Assembly: GCF_001571265.1 (NCBI RefSeq)
Contig: NZ_BCTL01000020.1
Location: 1-64,000, forward strand
Origin: Cedecea neteri NBRC 105707 = ATCC 33855
Lineage (GTDB): Bacteria; Pseudomonadota; Gammaproteobacteria; Enterobacterales; Enterobacteriaceae
DNA length: 64,000 bases
Reading direction: 5' to 3'
This document shows positions 29,927-48,011 of this stretch, piece by piece; positions within the stretch are counted from its first letter, which is position 1, and every line of letters starts with the position of its first letter. The translations under genes and the position numbers were made by a program. The notes beneath the pieces are model-generated. The model was not told where the DNA came from, ran no database searches, and was given only the letters and a program-made list of their open reading frames with translations.

Positions 29927-30033
29927 TACCACCTCAGATAAAAAGTCGGCCTTAGTGTAGTGCGAGGGCAGGGGAGGGTAAATCGTTAGTTATTTAACAG
30001 ATATTACAGGGCGGGTGCTTTGATGATACTGAT

Positions 30034-30059
30034 AAAAAAGGGCACCGAGGTGCCCTTTT
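30034..30059. terminator. Terminator downstream of the cyo operon
   Basis: The stem GGGCACC/GGTGCCC sits between an A-run on the left and TTTT on the right. It ends cyoE transcription on the minus strand; it lies upstream of yajR on the same strand. Confidence 0.85.
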
Positions 30060-30073
30060 ATGCTTTTCGCGAC

Positions 30074-30961
30074 TTACCAGACGTAAGTCAGCAGATTATG
30101 TGAGTCTGGCACCATAAAATCGACCGACATCATGACGCTCAACGAGGTAATGGCCACGATAGAGAAGATGAACAGCTTGCGCGCCCAAACTTTATCGTCT
30201 TCCACTTTATAGCCCCGCAGCGCCATGCCCAGCCACCAGACGCTGACCGCCGCGGCGACGATCAGGTATTTGTATCCGGCATAACCGCCCAGAGAAAGCA
30301 TCAACGTTGCCACCGCAAAAGCGATGATGTACAGCGTTATATGGTTCTTGGCGACGGAAATGCCTTTTACCACCGGCAGAACCGGGATGTTGGCGGCCTG
30401 GTAATCTTTAAAGCGGAAGATGGCAATCGCGTAGGAGTGCGGCATCTGCCACAGGCTAAAGATAGCCAGCAGGATAGCGGCGCCGGTGTCGAACTCGTTG
30501 GTCACGGCGCAGTAGCCGATAACCGGAGGAGCCGCGCCGGACAGGCTGCCGATGAGCGTGCCGTAGACCGAGTGGCGTTTCATGTAGAGGCTATACACCC
30601 CGACATACACCACGAAGCCCATTACGGCCAGCCACATCGCCAGCGGGTTAGCACCAAACCACAGCAGCATGAAGCCAGCAATACCCAACACGGTGGCGTA
30701 CACCAGCGAAATTTTCGGTGAAATCAGGCCCTTAACCAGCACCCGATTCTTCGTTCTCTCCATCTTCTGGTCGATATCGCGGTCGATAAAGTTGTTATAG
30801 ACACAACCCGATGCGACCACCAGTGATACGCCAACCAGCGTATAGAGGAACAGTGGGTAATTAATGCTGCCCTTCGAGGCCAGTAAAAATCCCCCAATGA
30901 CAGAAATTAAATTACCGAAAATAATTCCTGGTTTCGTTACTTGCAGGTATTGCTTAATCAT
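30074..30961 (-). CDS. cyoE: Heme O synthase (protoheme IX farnesyltransferase) CyoE
   Basis: An inner-membrane UbiA-type prenyltransferase that adds a farnesyl group to heme B, giving heme O for the bo3 oxidase. It has 295 residues from the ATG at 30961 (E. coli 296). The diphosphate-binding Asp motif is [15 protein letters not shown]; a second is in [12 protein letters not shown]. About nine membrane helices. It lies 11 bp after cyoD, the last gene of the operon. Confidence 0.97.
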
Positions 30962-30972
30962 ACATGCCGCTC

Positions 30973-31301
30973 TTAGTGAACCATCATGTTCAGGTTGAGG
31001 TTCCACATAATCCAGATCGAGCCGACCACCAGAATGGCAATAATCAGCACCGTAAAGGCAAAGGCCACCAGGTTCCAGCGCTCACTCGAAGAGGTGTTCA
31101 GATGCAGGAAGCACACAAGGTGCACCAGAATCTGGACAACTGCAGTCACCAGGATCACGGCAAGCATAGTGCCGTGAGAGGCCGTGCCTTCCATGACAAT
31201 CCAGAACGGGATAGCCGTCAGGATGATAGACAGGATAAAACCTGTCATGTAGGTCTTCACGCTACCGTGGTGGGCGCCGCTGTGTTCAGTTGAATGACTC
31301 A

Positions 31302-31302
<1 letters not shown>
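30973..31302 (-). CDS. cyoD: Cytochrome bo3 oxidase subunit IV CyoD
   Basis: A small three-helix subunit that helps assemble the copper site. At 109 residues it equals E. coli CyoD. A His-rich hydrophilic start ([11 protein letters not shown]) is followed by helices beginning [33 protein letters not shown] and [15 protein letters not shown]. Its ATG shares one base with the cyoC stop (TAATG), so translation is coupled. Confidence 0.97.
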
Positions 31303-34873
<3,571 letters not shown>

Positions 34874-35415
34874 TTAACGACCTCAATTCCAGGGAGCTCT
34901 ATTGTCGTTTAAAGTGTGCCGGCATTTTACGGGAAGGTTACATTACTGTAAACATGAATGGCTCAGTGTCAGTAGGGTGTTACTGGGTTCTGCCTACGAT
35001 GTCACACAGAATGCAACAAACTGTAAAATCTAGCGTTGGTGCGTGGGGGCCGCAGGTTATAACGAAAACCTATGTTGGCGGAAATAGTCCGGGGAAATGA
35101 GTATAACCAGCCAAATTGAAATACATTTAATTAACAATGCGGCATCATTTGTCACATATTACCAACAAATATTAATTTCTCACCGGGCTGAATCGTTAAG
35201 GATAATCTTTTAATGCTTATTGAACAAAGTAATTAAAGAAAACTGTATTTAATTACGATAAATAGTCCTCGACGGTAACACTTAACGACCTGAGTAATTA
35301 ATAGACAATAAAAGTAACTATCCGGTATTAATTACTTCATCTTAATGACAAACATCGATGAATACGGCGGGATTGAGGGCGCTGAATATCCATCACTCTT
35401 CACAGGGATAAGGTA
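34874..35415. promoter_or_regulatory. cyoA-hscC divergent control region, AT-rich with four GTAATTAA boxes
   Basis: A 542-bp gap with no ORF of note. The cyoA side (34874-35090) is of mixed composition with no clear promoter I can fix. The hscC side (35100-35350) is AT-rich and contains GTAATTAAA-N10-TTTAATTAC (35229-35256) and GTAATTAATA-N32-TATTAATTAC (35294-35345), both perfect inverted pairs. ArcA recognises GTTAATTA-like direct repeats and H-NS binds AT-rich DNA; neither assignment is proven. Confidence 0.6.
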
Positions 35416-37116
35416 ATGACAGGACACGTATCACCCATTATTGGCATCGATCTTGGCACCTCCAATAGCGCAGTCTCCTGGTTCAGCGAGGGCGCAGCGA
35501 CGCTGGCTTTAGGCCAAAAAGGTGAGCGCTTAACGCCTTCCGTTGTTGGGCTTGATGATGAAGGGCATCTGCTGGTAGGCGAGGCGGCAAAGGCTCGACT
35601 GGTTAGCCATCCTCATCTGACGGTTGCCAGTTTTAAGCGCTATATGGGCACCGAGAAAGTTTTCACCCTCGGCAAACAGTCATTTCGTGCCGAAGAGCTT
35701 TCCGCATTAGTGCTGCGAAAATTAAAAGCCGATGCCGAAGTTGCGCTTGGTTGTGAAGTCACGCGTGCGGCTATTACCGTTCCGGCTTATTTCAATGACT
35801 CCCAGCGCAAAGCAGTTAAAGCCGCAGGGCAAATGGCCGGACTCGAGGTTGAACGCCTCTTAAACGAGCCTACTGCGGCAGCACTGGCCTACGGATTAGC
35901 CGACAGCCGCGAGCAAAAATTCCTGATCTTCGACTTAGGCGGCGGTACATTTGATGTTTCCATCGTGGATATGTTCGAGGGCGTGATTGAAGTTCGTGCC
36001 AGCAGCGGCGATGCCTGGCTTGGCGGCGATGATTTTACCGAAGCCCTGCGCCAGTGGATGCTGAGCTGCTATCCCCAGCTGACGCTGGATAACCCAGAGC
36101 TTGCCGCTGACCTGACCCGCCAGGCCGAATCCCTGAAACAGCAGCTCAGCAGTCAGGACAGAGCCAGCGCGAAGCTGGTTCATGCAGGGGAAGAATTTAG
36201 CTGGGATCTCAACGAAGAGACTTTCCAGAAGTGCTGCGGCGCGCTGCTGTCCCGCCTGAAAAAACCGGTTGTTCAGGCGCTGCAGGATGCGCAATTCGAC
36301 GTTGCGCAACTCGATCACGTTATTCTGGTGGGCGGCGCAACGCGAATGCCTCTGGTACGCCAGTTGGTGACCCGAATGTTTGGTCGCTTCCCGCGTAATG
36401 AACTGAATCCCGATGAAGTTGTGGCGCTGGGGGCTGGCGTTCAGGCCGGGCTTATTGCAGAAGACAAAGCCCTGGACGACGTGGTGCTTACCGACGTCAT
36501 GCCTTACTCACTGGGTATTGCCGTATCGCGTCGAAACGGCGACAGAGTCGAAGAAGGCTTTTTCTCGCCGCTGATCGAGCGTAATGCTTTTGTGCCGGTA
36601 AGCGTGATGCAGACCTTCAGCACCATGAACGACAACCAGCGGCAGATAGATATTGAGGTCTACCAGGGGGAATCGCGCAAAGTCAGCGACAACCTGCTGC
36701 TGGATAGCATGTCGATTAAGATCCCGACGCGCAAAGCGGGAGAGGTGAGCGTGGATGTACGCTTCACCTATACCCTCGACGGCATTCTGGAAGTGGAATG
36801 CAAGATTAGCGGCGAGCAAAGCGCCTCGACAATGGTGATTGAAAAAGCGCCGGGCACGCTCAGCGCCGAGGAAATTGCGAAGCGTTTAAAACAGCTTGAT
36901 GCCCTTAAACAGCATCCTCGTGATGTGCCCGAAAACCGCCAGCTGGCTGCCGAGGCGTCAAAACGCTATGAGCAGACGCTGGGAGACAGACGCCAGATTA
37001 TCGATCATTACGCCACGCAATTTGAACAAGCGCTGGACCGCCAGGACCTGCGAATTATTGCCGCCGCGCGGGACGAACTGCGTCGGGTGCTAGACCAGCT
37101 TAACGACGGACTGTAA
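35416..37116 (+). CDS. hscC: Hsp70-family chaperone HscC-like
   Basis: A 566-residue Hsp70, shorter than DnaK (638), with length and motifs close to E. coli HscC (556). Nucleotide-binding domain: GIDLGTSNSAVSW (~10), NEPTAAALAYG, FDLGGGTFDVSIVD, VGGATRMPLVRQ. Substrate-binding beta domain at ~385-490 (PYSLGIAVSRRNGDR, VYQGESRKVSDN). The lid is short and lacks the DnaK C-terminal EEVKDKK-type tail. In E. coli HscC modulates sigma-70 activity and works with a DjlB/DjlC J-protein; here a J-protein gene starts two bp later. In K-12 hscC lies elsewhere on the chromosome. Confidence 0.88.
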   Translation: MTGHVSPIIGIDLGTSNSAVSWFSEGAATLALGQKGERLTPSVVGLDDEGHLLVGEAAKARLVSHPHLTVASFKRYMGTEKVFTLGKQSFRAEELSALVLRKLKADAEVALGCEVTRAAITVPAYFNDSQRKAVKAAGQMAGLEVERLLNEPTAAALAYGLADSREQKFLIFDLGGGTFDVSIVDMFEGVIEVRASSGDAWLGGDDFTEALRQWMLSCYPQLTLDNPELAADLTRQAESLKQQLSSQDRASAKLVHAGEEFSWDLNEETFQKCCGALLSRLKKPVVQALQDAQFDVAQLDHVILVGGATRMPLVRQLVTRMFGRFPRNELNPDEVVALGAGVQAGLIAEDKALDDVVLTDVMPYSLGIAVSRRNGDRVEEGFFSPLIERNAFVPVSVMQTFSTMNDNQRQIDIEVYQGESRKVSDNLLLDSMSIKIPTRKAGEVSVDVRFTYTLDGILEVECKISGEQSASTMVIEKAPGTLSAEEIAKRLKQLDALKQHPRDVPENRQLAAEASKRYEQTLGDRRQIIDHYATQFEQALDRQDLRIIAAARDELRRVLDQLNDGL

Positions 37117-37118
37117 AC

Positions 37119-38444
37119 ATGGCGACGATATGGGATGTGCTGGGCATTGAGCCCACAACGGATGAACGTGAAATTCGTCGCGCTTATGCCCGCGAGTTAA
37201 AGCTGCGACGGCCGGACAAAGATCCGCAGGGCTTTCAGGCGTTGCGCGAGGCGTTTGATAGTGCCAAACGCTATGCCAGTTCTACGCGAGAAACGCTCTG
37301 GATAGACGCGCGGGATACCGTGTTAGTCGATGAGCCTGGCCCTGAGTTTATTGAGGAAGACACCCCGCCTTCTACACAAGCTGAAGTGTCGGAGGAAGGC
37401 TGGAATAGAAATGAACTCTGGCAGCAGGCGCAGGTGTTCGCCGCGCTGTTACTCAGGGATGAAACCACGGGTTTTGGCGAGTTACACCACTACCTTGAGC
37501 AAGAGATTCCCGATTCACTGACGGCCGGGAAAACTTTTAGTCTGATGCTTGCCGAAGCGCTCAGCGAGCAGCCCTGGCTTTACCGCAGCCTGTTGAATGA
37601 AGTCTCTTCGATTATGGGCTGGCAGATTGATAACTACCGCTCATCTCAACTGCCTGACTGGCTGATACATGCTCTCGACGTCCAGATTGCCAATACCGAG
37701 CAAGAAAACTACTGGTTAATTCTGAGCCGGCAATACGATGGCGGTATGCTGGCCCAACTTAAATGGCGATTGTTAACAGAAAAGGGTGCCGGCATCCCCT
37801 GGTGGGCGTGGCTGGTACCGGATTTTATTCAGCAATTAAGAAATCAGGTTATCGAGGTGCGGCAGCGGTTTCCTTTATTACAGGAGCGGCTTAACCCTGC
37901 CCTGCTCGAGGCGGTTGATAAACCCAGACTGGTGCTCAGTTGGGAAACCATTATTACCGTGGTTTTCTGGGGGTATACGGCCTGGTTACCGGGTCATGAG
38001 TCGTTGAAAATGGCCGCGCATGCCGTGGCTATGTTGGGGGTTGTGGCTCTCTATCTCTGGGGATATCCGGCTTTAATGCGCCTTTGTAGGCAGCACCCGG
38101 GGCGATTAGAGAGGGTTGAGTCCTACTTTTGGCTGATTTCGTTAGTTATTCTGTTTTCCCCCTTTTATAAACTGTTCCATCACTTGTATTACTTAGATAA
38201 CAAAGCCAGTTCAGGTCTGACGCGTGTGCTGATGGTGGCGGCTATTTTGCTGGTTCCACTGGGTTTTACTCTGTGGGAAAAACGTAGCCGCTGGAGGACG
38301 CTTCCGCAGAGCATTGTGAAGACTATTATCGTTTTCCCTGTCAAAGTCATTCGCGACCTTCCGCCGTTGGTTAATGTGCTGGCTGCGATATTGCTGCCCA
38401 TGCTTTACGGCATCATTATCGAAATGGTCTATTTCATAAAATAA
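37119..38444 (+). CDS. Membrane-anchored J-domain protein (DjlB/DjlC-like)
   Basis: A 441-residue co-chaperone candidate. The J-domain occupies residues 1-52 (IWDVLGIEPTTDEREIRRAY). The HPD motif reads Arg31-Pro-Asp, so its His is replaced; I recall DjlB/DjlC proteins as similar but cannot verify. Residues ~60-270 are soluble and mostly helical. The C-terminal ~170 residues hold four to five membrane helices (IITVVFWGYTAWL, YFWLISLVILFSPF, VLMVAAILLVPLGF, VLAAILLPMLYGII). Two bp after the Hsp70 gene, so co-translated and probably its dedicated partner at the membrane. Ends at a strong terminator. Confidence 0.85.
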   Translation: MATIWDVLGIEPTTDEREIRRAYARELKLRRPDKDPQGFQALREAFDSAKRYASSTRETLWIDARDTVLVDEPGPEFIEEDTPPSTQAEVSEEGWNRNELWQQAQVFAALLLRDETTGFGELHHYLEQEIPDSLTAGKTFSLMLAEALSEQPWLYRSLLNEVSSIMGWQIDNYRSSQLPDWLIHALDVQIANTEQENYWLILSRQYDGGMLAQLKWRLLTEKGAGIPWWAWLVPDFIQQLRNQVIEVRQRFPLLQERLNPALLEAVDKPRLVLSWETIITVVFWGYTAWLPGHESLKMAAHAVAMLGVVALYLWGYPALMRLCRQHPGRLERVESYFWLISLVILFSPFYKLFHHLYYLDNKASSGLTRVLMVAAILLVPLGFTLWEKRSRWRTLPQSIVKTIIVFPVKVIRDLPPLVNVLAAILLPMLYGIIIEMVYFIK

Positions 38445-38473
38445 AAAAGCCCCCGGTATACGCCGGGGGCTTT
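38443..38473. terminator. Bidirectional terminator between the J-protein and DASS genes
   Basis: The stem GCCCCCGG/CCGGGGGC is flanked by AAAAAA on the left and TTT on the right. It serves both convergent genes. Confidence 0.85.
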
Positions 38474-38491
38474 CACATCAAGCGCCGTGCA

Positions 38492-40003
38492 TCAGAACAT
38501 CAGCACCATCCACGGATAGCTGATAAGCATCAGCGAACACAGGAAGATGGCGCCAAAGATGGTGCCCATTCGCCAGTAGTCTTTGGTTGGCAGGTAGCCG
38601 CTACCGTAGTAAATCGGGCTTGGGCCGGTGCCGTACGGAGTAATGATCCCCATCACGCCCAGTGACGTCACCATCATCAGGCAGAAGACCGGCATATTAA
38701 TCCCCGGAATAGACGCGGCAATGGTCAGGGTCGCTGGCAGCAGGGCGGTGGTGTGCGCCGTGGTGCTGGCAAAAAGATAGTGCAGCAGGTAGAACGCCAC
38801 CAGCAGCATCACCGCCGATACCTGTGGGTCGAAGCCGTGCAGCAGGGCGGCACCTTCTTTCCCCAGCCAGGCGATAAAGCCCACGCGTGCCAGACCATCG
38901 GCCAGCGCCACCAGGGTGGCAAACCAGGCAAAGGTATTCCAGGCTGGTTTATTGCTGATAATGTCGTTCCAGTTCAGCACGCCGGTCCACAGCATCAGGA
39001 TGATAACCAGCAGGGCAGCCATCGCTGGCTCAATCCACGCGGCGGCAAAAATCCACATCAGCAGGGCGCTACACACGAACAGCAGCAGCAGGATTTCGTT
39101 GCGCGACAGTTTGCCCAGTTTTTCCAGCTCTGCGGCGGCCCATTTCGGCACTTCGTCATTCACCTTCACTTCCGGCGGATAGAACCAGTAGGCCAGCAGC
39201 GGCATGGTAAGGATCAGCAGCACGCCCAGCGGCAGGAAGGCCAGGAACCACATCCCCCAGGAGATCTCGAAGCCAATGATGCTTTTCACCAACGCCAGCG
39301 CCAGCAGGTTTGGTGCCAGCGCGGAGAGGAACATCGAGCTGGTGATACAGGCGGCGCTGATTGCGACCCACATCAGGTAAGAGCCAATTCTGCGCGAGCT
39401 TGGATCGTTCGGCAGAGAGCCATAAAGCGGCGGCAGGTTGGCAATAATCGGGTAGATGGTACCCCCGCTGCGTGCGGTGTTAGACGGCGTGAACGGGGCG
39501 AGCAGCAGGTCGGCGAAAGTTATTGCGTAGCCCAGCGTCAGGCTGCGTCGGCCCAGATACTTCACCAGAATCAGCGCCAGTCGACGGCCAAACTGCGTTT
39601 TGTCGTAGCCAGCGGCAAACATAAAGGCGCCGAAGATCAACCACACGGTGGAGTTGCTAAAGCCGCTGACCGCCCACTGGAAGGACTGGCTGGCAAGCTT
39701 AAATTTAGGATCAGCCAGCTCGGCCGGGCTGAACAACAGCCACTGGCTGAACAGCGCAATAACCACGATGCCCGTCAGCCCGATAACTGCCCCAGGTAAC
39801 GGTTCGAAGATCAGCCCGACAATCACGCCGACGAAAACGGCAAAGAAGTGCCATGCATAGGGTTCTAGCCCCGCAGGAACCGGAAGCAATAATATAATGA
39901 TGCTGATCAGGATCGGTAAAAATAGCAGTATCAAGCGCTTTTTATTCCCCGCATCTGGAGGCGGTGCTTTCGCTGTCGCGCTTATTGTTGAGGTGTTAGT
40001 CAT
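38492..40003 (-). CDS. DASS-family di/tricarboxylate transporter (CitT/TtdT-like)
   Basis: A 503-residue inner-membrane transporter with ~12-14 helices. The paired substrate/ion motifs are TPSNTARSGG (N-terminal half) and ASTTAHTTALLP plus TPYGTGPSPIYYG (C-terminal half), as in divalent-anion:Na+ symporters and exchangers such as CitT and TtdT. The family moves succinate, fumarate, malate, tartrate, citrate or 2-oxoglutarate; the exact substrate cannot be read. It is divergent from the three-domain flavoprotein across a 644-bp region, which suggests the two handle the same carboxylate. Confidence 0.9.
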   Translation of the reverse strand: MTNTSTISATAKAPPPDAGNKKRLILLFLPILISIIILLLPVPAGLEPYAWHFFAVFVGVIVGLIFEPLPGAVIGLTGIVVIALFSQWLLFSPAELADPKFKLASQSFQWAVSGFSNSTVWLIFGAFMFAAGYDKTQFGRRLALILVKYLGRRSLTLGYAITFADLLLAPFTPSNTARSGGTIYPIIANLPPLYGSLPNDPSSRRIGSYLMWVAISAACITSSMFLSALAPNLLALALVKSIIGFEISWGMWFLAFLPLGVLLILTMPLLAYWFYPPEVKVNDEVPKWAAAELEKLGKLSRNEILLLLFVCSALLMWIFAAAWIEPAMAALLVIILMLWTGVLNWNDIISNKPAWNTFAWFATLVALADGLARVGFIAWLGKEGAALLHGFDPQVSAVMLLVAFYLLHYLFASTTAHTTALLPATLTIAASIPGINMPVFCLMMVTSLGVMGIITPYGTGPSPIYYGSGYLPTKDYWRMGTIFGAIFLCSLMLISYPWMVLMF

Positions 40004-40647
40004 AGCCTGTGCCTTAGAGTTATCATGATGAATTCGATTAATATTCCCTGCAAAACCTGTTTCCCGACTTTTATTTCCACCTCATCTTTTATAGGCAGAA
40101 TTTTATGCATTCATGATAGTTTTTTTAACCGGTGCAAATCTGACCGCTCATCGCACCCGATCCCAGCCCCCATATAACCTTATATTTATTGAGTGATAAG
40201 CGATTGTTTCTTTAATCCTTCATCATACTGAAACAATGGGGGATTATCCCTTCTTTTGCGTTCCTATTGGCCGTGCCAGGTATTTGATTTTGGTTTCTGT
40301 ATAGCAAAAAGCCAACGTTTTTATTTAACTAAAAAATTCGCATCATTTATATCCATAGTCTTTAGGTGGTTAAAGATCAAATCGTAACCTGATGTAAATA
40401 AGCCGCTTCGTTGATTGCCACCGACTATTCAGCATAAGCAAAGCGATATAAACCTTTTGTTATTTATGGTTATTATTTGTATTTGCTTTTTTTAAGGCGT
40501 TGACTAACATTCGAAAAATATATTCCGCAAAATTGCCGTTTCTGTTCCCTAATTCAAATTACGTTACTCCCTGATAATTGTGTTGCCTGCCGGGGCTATT
40601 CATTGAGTGCCGGACAATGTCGACCTCACCTGCTGGAATGATAAAGA
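40004..40647. promoter_or_regulatory. Divergent control region between the DASS and flavoprotein genes
   Basis: A 644-bp gap without a credible gene. It is AT-rich, most strongly from 40300 to 40560. Repeated TTATTTATGGTTATTATTTG (40460-40480 region) resembles ArcA-type direct repeats, and partial TTGAC/TTGAT half-sites could be FNR-like, but no complete FNR box is visible. No clear -35/-10 pair could be fixed. The length suggests several regulators act here. Confidence 0.4.
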
Positions 40648-43425
40648 ATGAACTCCAAAACTCCGATCCTGAAGCCACTCACCTTGCCCAACGGCGCGGT
40701 GCTGAAAAACCGCCTGATCATGGCGCCTATGACCACCTGTACCGGTTTTTACGACGGTAGCGTGCCGAGTGATTTGGTTGAGTATTACCGCGAACGTGCG
40801 GGTACCATCGGCACCGTTATCGTCGAATGCTGCTTTATCGATCCTAAAGGCCCCGCTTTCCCCGGCGCGCTGGCTATCGACAGTGACAACAAAATTCCTG
40901 GCCTGGCGCGAATTGCCAGCGCAATTAAATCCCGGGGTTCTAAAGCCATTCTCCAGATTTATCACGGCGGCCGAATGGTTGAGCCGGAGCTGATTGGCGG
41001 CAAGAAGCCCGTCGCGCCAAGCGCCATTGCCGCGCCGCGTGAAGGGGCCACGACGCCAGAAGCCCTGACCGCTGAAGAAGTGGATGTGATGATCACCAAA
41101 TTTGGTGACGCCGTGAACCGTGCCATTAAAGCCGGGTTTGACGGTGTGGAGATCCACGGTGCAAACACCTACCTGATCCAGCAGTTCTATTCACCAAACT
41201 CCAACCAGCGTGACGATAAATGGGGCGGTAGCCGCGACAACCGCGCTCGCTTCCCGCTGGAAGTGCTCGAAATCACCCACAAAATGGCCAGCCGCTTCGC
41301 CGATGCTTCCTTTATTATCGGTTACCGCTTCTCGCCGGAAGAGATTGAGGTACCGGGCATTCGCTTTGACGACACCATGTACCTGCTGGAAAAGCTGGCG
41401 GAAAGGGGCGTGGATTACCTTCACTTCTCCGTGGGCTATTTCAAGCGCGCTTCGATAGTCGATACTAAAGACCCGACTATGCTGATCAACAAGTATCTGA
41501 CCATGCGTTCTGAAACGCTGGCGAAAGTGCCGGTTATCGGGGTGGGTGGGGTTGTTAACCGCAGCGATGCCGAAGAAGCGCTGGGCCTGGGTTACGACCT
41601 GATTGCCGTCGGTAAAGCCTGTATTGCCTATCCGGACTGGGCCGATCGCATCCTGAAAAACGAAACGCTGGATCTGTTCATCGACAGCACCAGGCGCGAA
41701 GAGTTGTTGATCCCCGAGCCGCTTTGGCGCTTCTCGCTGGTCGATGCCATGATCCGCGACACCAGCACCACTGGCCGCAAATACAAAGCCGGGGTCTTCC
41801 AGGAAAAAGTGGAGGCCGAAGCGCTCAAACTCAAAATCAGCGTCACCCTCGACACTGACCGTATCACCGACATTACCCTGGTGCAGGATGATTCGGTGGA
41901 TGTTGATTTCACTCCAAGCTTCGAGATCCTGCGTTCTCGCATGCTGGTGGCCAACAGCCCGTATGTTGATGCGGTGACCGGGGCAACGGCGCAAAGTGAG
42001 GCCCTGAAGAAAGCGGTATCACGCGCGATGACTACCTCCAGCAAAGAGCACGTTATCGAAGAAGGCGGCAATCCGGACGCGCCGCAAAGCTACGACGTGG
42101 CGGTAATCGGCAGCGGCGGTGCAGGCCTGGCGGCGGCGATTCGTGCCTCTGATGCCGGCGCCCGCGTGGTGATTATTGAGAAGATGCCAACCATCGGCGG
42201 GAACACCATTAAAGCCTCCGTGGGCATGAACGCCGCGGAAACTCGCTTCCAGGCGATGAAGGGCATCAAAGACAGCAAAGAGCTGTTCTACGATGAGACG
42301 CTGAAAGGCGGTAAGTTCAGAAACAATACCGAGTTGCTGAAAGAGTTCGTCGAGCGCGCGCCTGGCGCCATTGACTGGCTGGCAAGCCTGGATATCGTTC
42401 TGAACGACATCACCATCACCGGCGGGATGAGCATCGATCGTACCCACCGTCCTGCAGATCGTTCGGCGGTAGGCGGCTTCTTAATCAGTGGTCTGGTGAA
42501 CAACGTTAACCAGCGCAGCATTGACGTTCTGCTGGATACCACCGTGGAAGAGATCCTGCATGAAAACGGCGTGGTAACCGGGGTTAAAGTCGCTAACGAA
42601 TATAACGAACACCATATTCTGCTGGCGAAAAGCGTCGTTGTGGCCACCGGCGGCTTCAGCGCCAACCGTAAAATGGTGGTCCACTACCGTCCTGAGCTGA
42701 AAGGCTTTGTGACCACCAACCATAAAGGTGCAACCGGGAGCGGTATCGCTCTGCTGGAGAAGATCGGCGCAGGTACGGTGGACATGGATCAGATCCAGAT
42801 CCACCCGACCGTGGAGCAAACCACTTCTTATCTGATCTCCGAGTCCATTCGCGGCGGCGGGGCTATCCTGGTTAGCCAGGAAGGGCAGCGTTTCTTCAAC
42901 GAACTGGAAACGCGTGACAAGGTTTCGGCGGAGATCATCGCCCTGCCTGAAAAGAGCGCCTGGATCCTGTTTGATGAGCAGGTACGCCAGAACAACAAAG
43001 CGGCGGATGAATACATTGCCCGCGGGTTTGTGATAAGCGCCTCAACGGCGGAAGAGCTGGCGGTGAAGCTGAATATGGATGCTCACGCGCTGCAGCAAAC
43101 GCTGGATCGCTACAACGGCTTTGTGAAACAGAAAAAGGACGAGGACTTTGGGCGTACCACCGGGATGCGTTTCCCGCTGGACACCGGGCCTTACTACGCG
43201 ATCCGCATTGCGCCGGGGGTTCACCACACGATGGGCGGTGTCACTATTAACACCAGCGCAGAAGTGGTAACCGAACAGCATCAGGTGATTCAGGGCGTCT
43301 GGGCTGCGGGTGAAGTGGTGGGCGGTATTCACGGTGCCAACCGCATCGGCGGTAACGCGGTCGCCGATATCATCATCTTCGGTACGCTCGCCGGGCAAAA
43401 CGCGGCGGCACACGCGCTGACTTAA
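40648..43425 (+). CDS. Three-domain flavoprotein reductase (OYE + FMN_bind + FAD_binding_2), NADH:fumarate reductase-like
   Basis: A 925-residue cytoplasmic flavoenzyme. Residues ~5-345 are an Old-Yellow-Enzyme barrel (VEIHGAN, His170/Asn173), the likely NADH:FMN site. Residues ~380-460 are an FMN_bind domain with DAVTGAT, whose Thr447 would carry FMN attached by ApbE. Residues ~482-920 are a flavocytochrome-c-type FAD domain (VIGSGGAGLAAA at ~486). Fumarate-reductase residues are kept: His719 in IHPTV, Arg756 in TRDKVS, His859/860 in GVHHTMGG and Arg899 in GANRIGGNA. No signal peptide, no heme motifs. A Klebsiella enzyme of this layout is a soluble NADH:fumarate oxidoreductase; related ones reduce acrylate- or cinnamate-type enoates. 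No apbE is nearby. Confidence 0.88.
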   Translation: MNSKTPILKPLTLPNGAVLKNRLIMAPMTTCTGFYDGSVPSDLVEYYRERAGTIGTVIVECCFIDPKGPAFPGALAIDSDNKIPGLARIASAIKSRGSKAILQIYHGGRMVEPELIGGKKPVAPSAIAAPREGATTPEALTAEEVDVMITKFGDAVNRAIKAGFDGVEIHGANTYLIQQFYSPNSNQRDDKWGGSRDNRARFPLEVLEITHKMASRFADASFIIGYRFSPEEIEVPGIRFDDTMYLLEKLAERGVDYLHFSVGYFKRASIVDTKDPTMLINKYLTMRSETLAKVPVIGVGGVVNRSDAEEALGLGYDLIAVGKACIAYPDWADRILKNETLDLFIDSTRREELLIPEPLWRFSLVDAMIRDTSTTGRKYKAGVFQEKVEAEALKLKISVTLDTDRITDITLVQDDSVDVDFTPSFEILRSRMLVANSPYVDAVTGATAQSEALKKAVSRAMTTSSKEHVIEEGGNPDAPQSYDVAVIGSGGAGLAAAIRASDAGARVVIIEKMPTIGGNTIKASVGMNAAETRFQAMKGIKDSKELFYDETLKGGKFRNNTELLKEFVERAPGAIDWLASLDIVLNDITITGGMSIDRTHRPADRSAVGGFLISGLVNNVNQRSIDVLLDTTVEEILHENGVVTGVKVANEYNEHHILLAKSVVVATGGFSANRKMVVHYRPELKGFVTTNHKGATGSGIALLEKIGAGTVDMDQIQIHPTVEQTTSYLISESIRGGGAILVSQEGQRFFNELETRDKVSAEIIALPEKSAWILFDEQVRQNNKAADEYIARGFVISASTAEELAVKLNMDAHALQQTLDRYNGFVKQKKDEDFGRTTGMRFPLDTGPYYAIRIAPGVHHTMGGVTINTSAEVVTEQHQVIQGVWAAGEVVGGIHGANRIGGNAVADIIIFGTLAGQNAAAHALT

Positions 43426-43431
43426 GGCGAT

Positions 43432-43464
43432 AAAAAAGCCGGCAGGGATAACCTTGCCGGCTTT
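43432..43464. terminator. Bidirectional terminator between the flavoprotein gene and ampG
   Basis: The stem GCCGGCA/TGCCGGC lies between AAAAAA on the left and TTT on the right. The genes converge here. Confidence 0.8.
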
Positions 43465-43488
43465 CTCAGCCCGGTTTTTTTATTCTTA

Positions 43489-44964
43489 TCAGATAAGCGC
43501 CGTTTTGCGCAGGGCGAGGAAGTCCAGCACGCCGCCAAACAGAATCCCACCGATGGCGAACAAAGCGCCCCATTCCAGAAGCTGTAAATCAAACGCCCAC
43601 TCGGTTAACCCCAGCGCATTACAGATAATCACTACCAGCCATGCCGCCAGCAGCAGGCAGCCAAAGCTTAGAGTACGCAGCGCCAGGCGATAGGCCGGAG
43701 CAAATTCACTGCGCGACATAAAGGTTTCGGTTTGTTGAGTGAATTCCAGCGTGCTTTTGCACACCAGCAGTAAAAGGATCCCCGGCACCGCCGCAACGAC
43801 CGAAAACAGGTAGAAGGTTGGCCAGCCGTGCGCCTCTACAAACCAGCCGGCAATCGGGCCGACATAGACGCGCCCCACGGCGGACAGCGCAGAAAGCAGC
43901 GCAAACTGGGTGGCGGAAAATGACTTATTGCACAGCGTCATCAGCAGCGCCACGAAGGCTGCAGTGCCCATGCCGCCGCAAAGATTCTCGAAGAACACCG
44001 CGCTCGCCATGGTAATCATGTCCTTATCCGTTACCGACAGCAGCCAGTAACCGGCGTTGGACACGCCCTGCAAAATGCCAAAAATCAGCAGCGCGCGGAA
44101 CAGCGTCAGCTTTTGCATCAGCATTCCGCCAAGCAGCGCCCCGATAATGGTGGCACACAGCCCAAGGGTTTTATTCACCATACCCACTTCACCGGCATCA
44201 AAGCCGACGCCGCGAATCAGAAACGTCGTAGTCAGGCTCATGGCAAAGGCATCGCCCAGCTTATAAAGCACGATCAGCAGCAAAATTAGCCAGGCGTTGT
44301 TGCGGCCAAAGAAGTCACGCAGCGGCTCAACGACGGCGCGTTCCAGGCTTTTAGGCACCGGGATTGCGTTCGTTGGTTCAGGCGCTAAAAAGGTGGCGAT
44401 AATGCAAGGTACCAGCAGGGCTGCCATCAGCCAGTAGGTTGCCTGCCAGCCTAAATAGCGGTCCGCAATCCATAGCGCAAGGCCGCCGGAAACCAGCATC
44501 GCCAGACGGTAGCCCAGCACGCTGATGGCGGCGCCGGTGCCGCGCTCTTCGGCAGACAAAACGTCGGTCTTCCAGGCATCAAAGACGATATCCTGAGAGG
44601 CTGAACAGAAGGCGATGATCACCGCCAGGGCAGCCATCCAGCGCAGCTGAGAGGTGGGTTCAAGGAACCCCATGGCGGCAATCGCCACCAACAACAGAAT
44701 TTGCGTAATTAACAGCCAGCCGCGACGACGCCCGAGCAGCGGCGGGGTGTAGCGGTCCATTACCGGCGACCAAAGAAACTTAAAGACGTAGGCCTGGCCC
44801 ACAAGCGAGAAGAAACCGATGGTTTTCAGGTCGATATTTTCGACGGTCATCCAGGCCTGAAGCGTGCCTGAAGTCAGGGCTAAAGGCAGACCGGACGCAA
44901 AGCCCAGAATCAGTAAAATGGCTGATTTCGGCTGCTGAAAGATGCGCAGATAATGATTGGACAT
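43489..44964 (-). CDS. ampG: Muropeptide permease AmpG
   Basis: An inner-membrane MFS-type permease that imports GlcNAc-anhydroMurNAc peptides for peptidoglycan recycling; it thereby feeds AmpR-controlled beta-lactamase induction where ampC/ampR exist. From the ATG at 44964 it has 491 residues, equal to E. coli AmpG; the five-residue longer start at 44979 is less likely. Conserved blocks: LILGFASGLPLALTSGTLQA, FKFLWSPVMDRY, CSASQDIVFDAWKTD, LYKLGDAFAMSLTTTFL. The ribosome site is poor. yajG lies 57 bp upstream on the same strand. Confidence 0.97.
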   Translation of the reverse strand: MSNHYLRIFQQPKSAILLILGFASGLPLALTSGTLQAWMTVENIDLKTIGFFSLVGQAYVFKFLWSPVMDRYTPPLLGRRRGWLLITQILLLVAIAAMGFLEPTSQLRWMAALAVIIAFCSASQDIVFDAWKTDVLSAEERGTGAAISVLGYRLAMLVSGGLALWIADRYLGWQATYWLMAALLVPCIIATFLAPEPTNAIPVPKSLERAVVEPLRDFFGRNNAWLILLLIVLYKLGDAFAMSLTTTFLIRGVGFDAGEVGMVNKTLGLCATIIGALLGGMLMQKLTLFRALLIFGILQGVSNAGYWLLSVTDKDMITMASAVFFENLCGGMGTAAFVALLMTLCNKSFSATQFALLSALSAVGRVYVGPIAGWFVEAHGWPTFYLFSVVAAVPGILLLLVCKSTLEFTQQTETFMSRSEFAPAYRLALRTLSFGCLLLAAWLVVIICNALGLTEWAFDLQLLEWGALFAIGGILFGGVLDFLALRKTALI

Positions 44965-45021
44965 AGGGGAATTGTACAAACTCTGTTGTTGGCCCGCGTG
45001 AGCAGGCCAACGGGGTAAAAA

Positions 45022-45600
45022 TTAACGAGCGTTCTGCTTAACGAAGTCGTGAACGCTGGTGTCCTGAGCCATATCCGCAATGGTATCGGTCAGCACGGAG
45101 TTAACCGCGTCAGCGATATTTTTATTGGTAGCCTGGAACGCGCCTTCGACGTTATAGCTGGAGCGGTAGTTCTTGGTCATCTTGTTGCCGTTCTTCGCGG
45201 TCGCAATGATGGAGATATCCGCTTTGGTGGCGATGTTGTAGCGCACGTTACCCTGGGAAACGTCGGCGTACAGCTGGTTAACGATGATCTGCAGGTCAAC
45301 CGGGCTGTTCGGCCCAATCATATAACCGCGAGCGGTCATCTGCTTCTCCAGCACTTCCTGCAGCAGGAAGCGCAGATCGCGGGATGGCGTCAGCGTGACA
45401 AGCTGATTGTCGCGGGTCACTTTCGCCAGCGCCTGGCTGGTACGCTGATCGGCACCGTTGATGCTTAGCGTAACGCCCATCAGGCTTGGATCCTGCTGTG
45501 GCAGGGTGATTTTTGGCGACACTTCAATAGTGGTTGGCGGTGTTGCACAGCTGGCCAGCATAAACATGGCAACCAGCGGGAAAAGTAATTTTTTTAACAT
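45022..45600 (-). CDS. yajG: Lipoprotein YajG
   Basis: An outer-membrane-type lipoprotein of unknown function. It has 192 residues, equal to E. coli YajG. The signal peptide MLKKLLFPLVAMFMLASC ends in the lipobox LASC. The mature part is a YajG/lipo-type alpha-beta domain (TLSINGADQRTSQALAKVTR, LQEVLEKQMTARGYM). It precedes ampG on the same strand, an arrangement kept from E. coli and seen as one transcription unit. Divergent from bolA. Confidence 0.95.
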   Translation of the reverse strand: MLKKLLFPLVAMFMLASCATPPTTIEVSPKITLPQQDPSLMGVTLSINGADQRTSQALAKVTRDNQLVTLTPSRDLRFLLQEVLEKQMTARGYMIGPNSPVDLQIIVNQLYADVSQGNVRYNIATKADISIIATAKNGNKMTKNYRSSYNVEGAFQATNKNIADAVNSVLTDTIADMAQDTSVHDFVKQNAR

Positions 45601-45905
45601 GTTCGCTTTCTCAATGTACTCAAAGGGCAGGCTGATAAAAAATCACGCCATCATAACACTGCGGCCGTTCAGGGGAAGTGCTTAACGCACGGAATTTCAT
45701 CGCGTTGCCATTTTTCCGGGCCTCAGCAAAACCTTCTGACACTTTTCATTCGGTTTAGTGCCTTAACCCTATGAACGTTCTGATTACCGGGTGAGGAACC
45801 GCCCGCGAAAGTTAAATTTTTGTTGTGTTCAAAGCAAAATCTGGCTAAAAGCGGCTAACATTTAAAGGGATGAGTGGCATCTCTACGTTGTCGAGGAGAA
45901 AGTTC
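45601..45905. promoter_or_regulatory. yajG-bolA divergent region with gearbox-like bolA promoter
   Basis: A 305-bp gap. About 47 bp before the bolA ATG lies CGGCTAAC (45852-45859), close to the gearbox -10 CGGCAAGT that drives stationary-phase bolA expression in E. coli. The matching -35 (CTGCAA) is not well preserved. A clear GAGGAG ribosome site follows at ~45893. The yajG side has no promoter that I can define. Confidence 0.4.
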
Positions 45906-46223
45906 ATGCTGATACGCGAGCAGATAGAAGAGAAGTTAAAAGCCGCCTTTACCCCCGCGTACCTGGAAGTCGTGGATGAAAGCTATCGTCACAATGTCCC
46001 GGCGGGCTCTGAAAGCCATTTCAAGGTGGTGCTGGTTAGCGATCGTTTTACCGGCGAGCGCTTTTTAAACCGGCACCGTATGATTTATGGCACGTTGAGT
46101 GAGGAACTGGCAGGCCCGGTACACGCGCTGGCGCTGCATACCTATACCGTAAAAGAGTGGGAAGGTCTGCAGGACACGGTGTTTGCCTCCCCAAACTGCC
46201 GTGGCGCGGGCAGCATCGCTTGA
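45906..46223 (+). CDS. bolA: Stress-response morphogene BolA
   Basis: A small class-II-KH-fold protein that affects cell shape and biofilm genes and pairs with monothiol glutaredoxin Grx4 via a [2Fe-2S] cluster. It has 105 residues from the ATG at 45906, equal to E. coli; an upstream in-frame ATG at 45870 precedes the ribosome site and is rejected. Conserved: [20 protein letters not shown] and the cluster/partner His in [12 protein letters not shown]. Followed by a terminator. Confidence 0.96.
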
Positions 46224-46290
46224 TTTACCGCTAAGCGTTTGCAACTAAGGGAACTTTTCCGTTATGTTGCGGTATGTATACTGCGTTTCC

Positions 46291-46318
46291 AAAAACGGCC
46301 TGCGGGCCGTTTTGTTTT
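46291..46318 (+). terminator. Terminator after bolA
   Basis: The stem ACGGCC/GGCCGT with a TGC loop lies between AAAA and TTTTGTTTT. Confidence 0.85.
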
Positions 46319-46402
46319 GTCTGCCTCTTCAAGAGAGCGGGCAAAAAAGAATAAATGACAAAGAAGTGTGAAAAAGGCCGCAGCCGAGCGCTATTGCCGT
46401 TC

Positions 46403-46431
46403 TCGACTCACCCCAGCGATGCCGCTATAAT
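46403..46431 (+). promoter_or_regulatory. Sigma-70 promoter candidate for tig
   Basis: A perfect TATAAT (46426-46431) with TCGACT (46403-46408, 4 of 6 to TTGACA) at a 17-bp spacing. The leader to the tig ATG is ~130 nt. The remaining part of the 348-bp bolA-tig gap holds the bolA terminator and nothing else I can define. Confidence 0.6.
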
Positions 46432-46562
46432 GCTGCGTCTTATTTTTTGAATGTCTTCGGGATGATTCTGACGACAGGGAATGTGTTTCTGATTCAGAGA
46501 ACATCCTGGTTCTGTGAAGCCAGCCGGGCTTCCAGAGTTGACCGAGCACTGTGATTTTTTGA

Positions 46563-47870
<1,308 letters not shown>

Positions 47871-47907
47871 GTGCTTTTGGCTAATTAGCCAAAAACCGCT
47901 GTATCAG

Positions 47908-47938
47908 GCCCGTCACCTTTTGGTGGCGGGCTTTTTTT
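47908..47938 (+). terminator. Terminator after tig
   Basis: A ten-bp stem, GCCCGTCACC/GGTGGCGGGC, with loop TTTT is followed by a T-run of seven. Confidence 0.93.
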
Positions 47939-48011
47939 ATTGCTAAATCACACGATAAGCCATCAATAAATCCCTATTTCAGGGTTAGCGTAACAACAAA
48001 AGGTTGTTATG

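Follow-up and report, generated by a model that had tools for sequence, protein, structure and literature searches.

A bare, probably acquired second copy of a Klebsiella-type fumarate-reduction module in Cedecea neteri

Gene content of the locus

The window analysed here is a 64,000 bp stretch of Cedecea neteri NBRC 105707 = ATCC 33855 (contig NZ_BCTL01000020.1, assembly GCF_001571265.1). It contains a DASS-family transporter gene on the minus strand (38492..40003, 503 aa; identified by its open reading frame and a profile search) and, divergent from it on the plus strand, an FRD gene (40648..43425, 925 aa) encoding a predicted soluble NADH:fumarate oxidoreductase with three domains. The 644 bp between the two genes (40004..40647, no strand assigned) form a divergent control region. 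An initial annotation of this DNA described a divergent DASS transporter and a three-domain flavoprotein across 644 bp; the open reading frames lie exactly as described there, and the domains are confirmed by Pfam. Identity with the C. davisae locus L081 is 94%.

The pair is flanked by ampG and cyoA. These two genes are adjacent in E. coli K-12, with a spacing of 459 bp; the DASS-FRD pair therefore sits in an insertion. Insertions at the ampG-cyoA site comprise DASS and FRD and, in some Cedecea, also hscC and djlB. The hscC and djlB-like genes separate the cassette from cyoA in the window (35416-38444) and at loci L021, L022, L081, L173 and L174; they are missing in Cedecea L023 and L172, and constitute a second variable insertion at this site. 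No near match of the window locus was found in the E. coli genomes searched. No tRNA genes are present near the insertion (30000-48000), and only two RNA family matches, both far below gathering scores, were obtained for 38000-44000.

Both genes are under purifying selection. By a counting method in which dS (0.24-1.04) is partly saturated, dN/dS within Cedecea is 0.01-0.042 for the window-type FRD (5 pairs), which is similar to the full-copy FRD described below (0.026-0.049), and 0-0.022 for the DASS gene (4 pairs with intact frame); a fifth DASS pair, which includes the split frame of genome G004, gives 0.064. These low values show that the two open reading frames are not a chance pair. The FRD frame of this copy is open in 8/8 Cedecea genomes; the DASS frame is split only in G004, which is compatible with dispensability or with an assembly error.

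Domains and predicted substrate of the FRD

The domain order of the FRD is OYE, FMN_bind, FAD_binding_2, which we take to be the order in K. pneumoniae KPK_2907 as well. The OYE-like Oxidored_FMN domain (40666..41661, plus strand; residues 7-338, 247 bits in Pfam) carries H170, N173 and Y175, and its FMN site with these residues is the predicted site of NADH oxidation. The FMN_bind domain (41830..42030, plus strand; residues 395-461) scores 26.2 bits against a Pfam cut-off of 22, and the FAD_binding_2 fumarate-reductase domain (42094..43362, plus strand; residues 483-905) scores 270.8 bits in Pfam. Within FMN_bind, the flavinylation motif DAVTGAT (41968..41988, plus strand; residues 441-447) ends at Thr447, the predicted covalent-FMN residue, in agreement with the initial annotation. 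D441-A-V-T-G-A-T447 matches the form Dxx[ST]GA[ST] given in the available part of PMC12052999, and the D, G, A and terminal T of the motif are kept in 68/68 aligned FRD sequences. Judged by eye only, the N-terminus has no hydrophobic stretch. The AlphaFold model of the protein is moderate (pLDDT 73.6, pTM 0.57) and is used for domain folds alone for this reason; FMN_bind is not among the rows of the structure comparison as a domain by itself.

Six residues of the FAD domain (H719, E732, R735, R756, H859 and R899) occupy the active-site positions of flavocytochrome c3 (Fcc3) in alignments; the last two correspond to Fcc3 His504 and Arg545. The other four Fcc3 pocket residues are His365, Glu378, Arg381 and Arg402, according to the accessible text of PMC7921117. 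The fumarate-reductase active-site residues reported initially are thus all present. All six residues are identical in the Cedecea bare rows (8), the other bare rows (11), the full W-type rows (26) and the type-2 rows (23); this identity across all groups makes fumarate, rather than a new enoate, the likely substrate. The acrylate, cinnamate and urocanate suggested initially are not supported: the dicarboxylate pocket is intact, is the same as in DcuSR-linked copies, and has His at the position of the UrdA Tyr.

The Cedecea bare FRD clade has a long stem (0.29-0.31) and 37 clade-specific replacements, none of which falls at any of the six residues. Stem and replacements make some functional change possible, though the listed catalytic positions are all unchanged.

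The enzyme type is already known: it is that of the K. pneumoniae soluble NADH:fumarate oxidoreductase, KPK_2907. Since a soluble fumarate-type reductase is established in this homologue, the initial idea of a soluble electron sink is not new. Its NADH-linked, covalent-FMN and membrane-Frd-independent character is upheld by homology with K. pneumoniae, and the alternative enoate is not. The genome also encodes membrane Frd (FrdC gene on contig C12).

Transporter

The transporter matches Na_sulph_symp in Pfam (520.8 bits) and TIGR00785 dass (491.4 bits; cut-off 198.6). Among solved structures, only four distinct sequences match it at E up to 0.001: the chloroplast dicarboxylate transporters 1 and 2.1, and two constructs which we take to be LaINDY, as fits the residues. 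R178, H408 and H417 of the window DASS correspond to LaINDY Arg159, His392 and His401, which sit at or close to the Na1/Na2 positions, given an offset of three in the LaINDY chain numbering, derived by hand. Exchangers conserve these LaINDY residues and cotransporters lack them, as stated in the available part of PMC7553777. Their presence suggests that a C4-dicarboxylate is probably swapped for succinate; the window DASS is consequently a probable C4-dicarboxylate/succinate exchanger. The initial annotation was right about the transporter, but the 'import' attributed to it should rather be understood as an exchange against succinate. The name 'sodium-coupled symporter', which comes from the family model, may be misleading for a transporter beside an FRD, given the exchanger residues.

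A full copy in the same genome

A second FRD, 71.1% identical to the window FRD, is located on contig C34 of the same genome. Here it is part of a module with a DcuS/MalK-family kinase (NF008298, 806.9 bits; NCBIfam cut-off 520), DcuR (NF007750, 451.6 bits; NCBIfam cut-off 262) and ApbE, and with divergent DASS and FumA-type fumarase genes. This DcuR is the only one above the cut-off in the genome. ApbE, fumarase and DcuSR are absent at the window locus; judged by gene content, this second copy of the Klebsiella-type module consists of a bare DASS-FRD pair.

In a sample of 392 genomes of the family, an FRD match at E up to 1e-250 occurs in 94, of which 12 have two. Adding three further Cedecea and the genomes that carry loci L029, L039 and L055 brings the two-copy genomes found to 18, all of which were examined; in 18/18, a bare DASS-FRD pair (its DASS frame split in G004) coexists with a full module. 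Seven of the two-copy genomes belong to groups g60 (Rahnella) and g25. Hafnia psychrotolerans, a member of genus group g25, is single-copy. FRD context was examined for 28 of the 82 single-copy genomes, and ApbE adjoins FRD in 27/28. The exception is G121, in which the only full-length FRD found belongs to a bare DASS-FRD pair. G121 also has a fumarase-DASS-ApbE stretch (L181, 6427-11004) about 740 kb from the bare pair, with no FRD match within 19.5 kb.

The locus type is what is new here: a bare copy without maturation gene, fumarase, sensor or FNR box. The initial annotation was limited to the window and overlooked the second, full copy, the missing ApbE, fumarase and DcuSR, the missing FNR box and the probable horizontal origin. 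Nothing on the bare cassette or on FNR control of the module was found in the literature covered, which consisted of titles and abstract beginnings, with subscription papers mostly out of reach.

Control region

Distinct divergent regions of 200-1500 bp were compared, with duplicates and loci without an adjacent DASS dropped. A perfect FNR box, which we take to be TTGAT-N4-ATCAA, is present in 48/51 full W-type and 37/39 full type-2 regions and in 0/19 bare regions; for 85/90 full versus 0/19 bare regions, Fisher p is 5e-17, over loci which are not independent. The same contrast holds within the two-copy genomes, where the box is found in 18/18 full control regions and 0/18 bare ones. In dinucleotide shuffles of the full regions, a perfect box arose in 26 of 9000. 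The full regions without a perfect box have sites with two mismatches (L026, L027 and L078) or one (L103 and L160).

The window control region has no perfect FNR box; its best site has two mismatches, which is reached by 47% of mononucleotide shuffles. The Cedecea bare regions as a group do no better than shuffles, with a best site of two mismatches in 7/8 and three in 1/8. Three one-mismatch FNR-like sites occur in the whole window (1.54 expected), and none of them is in the control region. Such a site is present in 7/11 non-Cedecea bare regions (6/7 from Rahnella and g25, plus L055); by eye, its position is that of the second conserved element of full W-type regions and not that of the FNR box.

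A candidate bare-type element, AAAAGCCAA (40307..40315, plus strand), was noticed post hoc and is a lead only. It is exact in 11/19 bare and 0/90 full regions, and present with at most one mismatch in 18/19 bare and 7/90 full regions. No 7- to 9-mer discriminating the bare class was above threshold. The 644 bp region contains conserved blocks within Cedecea. The last ~80 bp ahead of the FRD start (40570-40647) are nearly invariant in eight Cedecea sequences and may have a leader function. In 39900-40700, two promoter-like sites were found (2.3 expected) and five terminator-like sites (0.7 in shuffles), three of which are one overlapping site at 40238-40279. By comparison with homologues, we infer that the window copy is under different control from the full copy.

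Maturation by ApbE

The genome of the window has two ApbE: one on contig C16, with a lipobox-like start, and one on C34, without an evident signal sequence as judged by eye. A porin-like ORF adjoins apbE on C16. There are three FMN_bind proteins in the genome, namely the two FRDs and one on C9, presumably RnfG. Cytoplasmic-type ApbE is present in 8/8 Cedecea genomes and lies beside the full copy in the genomes of L029, L039 and L055; ApbE also adjoins the full copy in all seven two-copy g60/g25 genomes. The ApbE match in G059 has one TAA inside in one search and an open frame in another. In total, a genome-borne cytoplasmic-type ApbE was found in 19/19 bare-copy genomes checked. The ApbE of G121 lies within its FRD-less module, with the only full-length FRD found in the bare pair elsewhere; this separation is as expected if ApbE acts in trans. 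By analogy with homologues, the bare-copy FRD would be flavinylated in trans.

Origin of the window copy

In a quick FRD tree of 79 rows, the clade of the window copy falls within a W clade of 59 rows (support 100) of which the others are almost all Erwiniaceae-labelled; it is nested two forks deep, with supports of 99 and 84. The C34 copy groups with other Enterobacteriaceae. The window copy clusters with Erwiniaceae sequences instead of its paralogue, which makes a horizontal acquisition probable. In another quick tree, built from 68 selected rows with Gilliamella as the root, the Cedecea bare rows again fall in the W clade (100), at an unresolved basal fork, with the Rahnella and g25 bare rows well inside the clade; bare FRD rows form three groups in this tree. 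The window DASS is likewise in the W clade of a quick DASS tree (support 98), which intermingles bare rows with full Erwinia rows. A single origin of the bare copies, with L146 left out, is neither rejected nor established by the AU test (p = 0.21).

Within-genus duplication was tried as the origin of the window copy by constraining the eight bare rows of Cedecea to group with two C34-type rows of the genus, and was rejected (dlnL 270, p-AU 1.8e-13; quick tree with a long stem to the Cedecea clade). An ancient duplication with numerous later losses is a possible alternative to transfer. Base composition gives no sign of transfer: G+C is 57.5% for DASS, 56.9% for FRD, 56.9% for ampG and 54.4% for the window.

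With the C34 FRD as query, 90 plasmid records match at E up to 1e-200 (Pantoea 74, Rahnella 12, Duffyella 3, Klebsiella 1), and plasmid carriage is a possible transfer route. An FRD on a contig labelled as a Halomonas MAG (L060) nests among Pantoea, probably through misbinning; two loci with an Enterobacter label, L030 and L050, are likewise nested within Pantoea.

Proposed role and alternative explanations

We consider the window pair likely to be a stripped, probably acquired second copy of the Klebsiella-type fumarate-reduction module, served in trans by ApbE and differently controlled. Modules of this type are thought to dispose of surplus NADH by reducing fumarate to succinate, which is swapped out of the cell. 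For the window pair, catalysis and transport are modelled on homologues: DASS would take up a C4-dicarboxylate of the malate, fumarate or tartrate type from outside and release internal succinate, and fumarate would be supplied by housekeeping fumarase where needed. The OYE-domain FMN would accept hydride from NADH, and electrons would pass to the FMN on Thr447, attached in trans by ApbE from the C34 module, and then to FAD; fumarate would be reduced to succinate, which would exit via the exchanger. With no FNR box and no linked DcuSR, the window copy would be controlled unlike the full copy, although the distant DcuR could act on it. Judging from its sequence, the pair is likely to lie outside FNR control, as a copy that is either subfunctionalised or redundant.

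The bare copy may instead only add to gene dosage when C4-dicarboxylates are present without oxygen, as for the full copy, via DcuR in trans or another anaerobic regulator such as ArcA, and not be subfunctionalised. This is a real possibility, somewhat short of an even chance: pocket and transporter type are the same as in the full copy, the single genomic DcuR could serve both copies, and one-mismatch FNR-like sites occur in most non-Cedecea bare regions. However, the perfect FNR box separates bare from full regions completely within the same genomes and almost completely across the sample, and the best window site is of a quality that nearly half of the shuffles equal. A different substrate, with FRD acting on acrylate, cinnamate, urocanate or a similar unsaturated acid brought in by DASS, as the initial annotation proposed, is quite improbable. 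Relatives with other unsaturated-acid substrates besides urocanate exist, and the long stem branch with its 37 clade-specific changes would suit such a shift. A urocanate-reducing relative is also described in the accessible part of PMC7921117, and the structure of this urocanate reductase matches the FAD domain of the model. On the other hand, H719, the His specific to fumarate, and the residues of the Glu-Arg proton path (E732, R735, R756) are identical to those of DcuSR-linked copies, whereas UrdA has Tyr and no Glu according to the same source text; furthermore, the homologous module includes a fumarase and a C4-dicarboxylate sensor.

It is very improbable that the window copy is a relic left by horizontal transfer on which selection is weak or absent. 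The split DASS frame of G004 and the loss of partner genes would be expected of a relic, but the FRD frame is open in all eight Cedecea genomes, its dN/dS is like that of the full copy, and the control region keeps conserved blocks.

A broader proposal, less likely than not, can be made tentatively: the bare cassette would have spread horizontally in Cedecea, Rahnella, the H. psychrotolerans group and Erwiniaceae as a soluble NADH-to-succinate valve outside FNR/DcuSR control, reliant on the ApbE of the full module already in the genome, perhaps with AAAAGCCAA and a single origin. Such a valve would work, for example, with oxygen present or during shifts between conditions. Fumarate reduction is usually regarded as an anaerobic, FNR-controlled trait; two copies in one genome, one with FNR box and apbE and one with neither, offer a clean natural contrast for fumarate reductase use outside anaerobiosis. 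Two-copy genomes also bear on whether one flavin transferase serves an unlinked client.

Comparison with known systems

K. pneumoniae KPK_2907 is a soluble cytoplasmic, NADH-dependent fumarate reductase which functions apart from the electron transport chain, and its covalent FMN is attached by a cytoplasmic ApbE, as described in the available portions of PMC4348036, PMC12052999 and PMC11325843. The K. pneumoniae locus in CP125156.1 resembles the window pair in its three-domain FRD type and divergent DASS partner; we infer that its FRD gene is KPK_2907. Over 807 residues, this FRD shares 71.9% identity with the window copy and 82.8% with the one on C34. Unlike the window locus, the K. pneumoniae locus has ApbE (FAD:protein FMN transferase), DcuR, a sensor kinase and a perfect FNR box. 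In the record, the transporter is annotated as an anion permease; the FRD match is unannotated (residues 118-925, no stop in the matched part), as is a fumarase-like sequence recognised by eye downstream of the permease. CP125156.1 (L182, 5.37 Mb) was deposited as a plasmid but is evidently a chromosome.

The closest relatives outside Cedecea are full W-type modules of Pantoea and Erwinia, which share the divergent layout (FRD 79-84% identical, DASS mostly 85-91%). In contrast to the window locus, most of these have fumarase and ApbE, and usually DcuSR. In Gilliamella (L076, L087), FRD and ApbE are followed by a distant DASS on the same strand (35-36% identical), with no divergent partner.

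Shewanella Fcc3 shares the FAD domain and active-site residues with the window FRD (40-45% identity in Foldseek alignments), but it has a haem domain in place of OYE and FMN_bind according to the accessible text of PMC7921117. The structure of UrdA matches the fold of the FAD domain in the predicted model of the window FRD with a Z of 41.2. From the same portion of PMC7921117, UrdA likewise bears covalent FMN; it differs in being periplasmic, in having Tyr373 where the window FRD has the fumarate-type His719, and in lacking the Glu of the fumarate-reductase proton path, the His versus Tyr difference separating fumarate from urocanate reductases. For the transporter, the closest known systems are LaINDY and the chloroplast dicarboxylate transporters 1 and 2.1, and the window DASS keeps the Arg and two His of exchangers.
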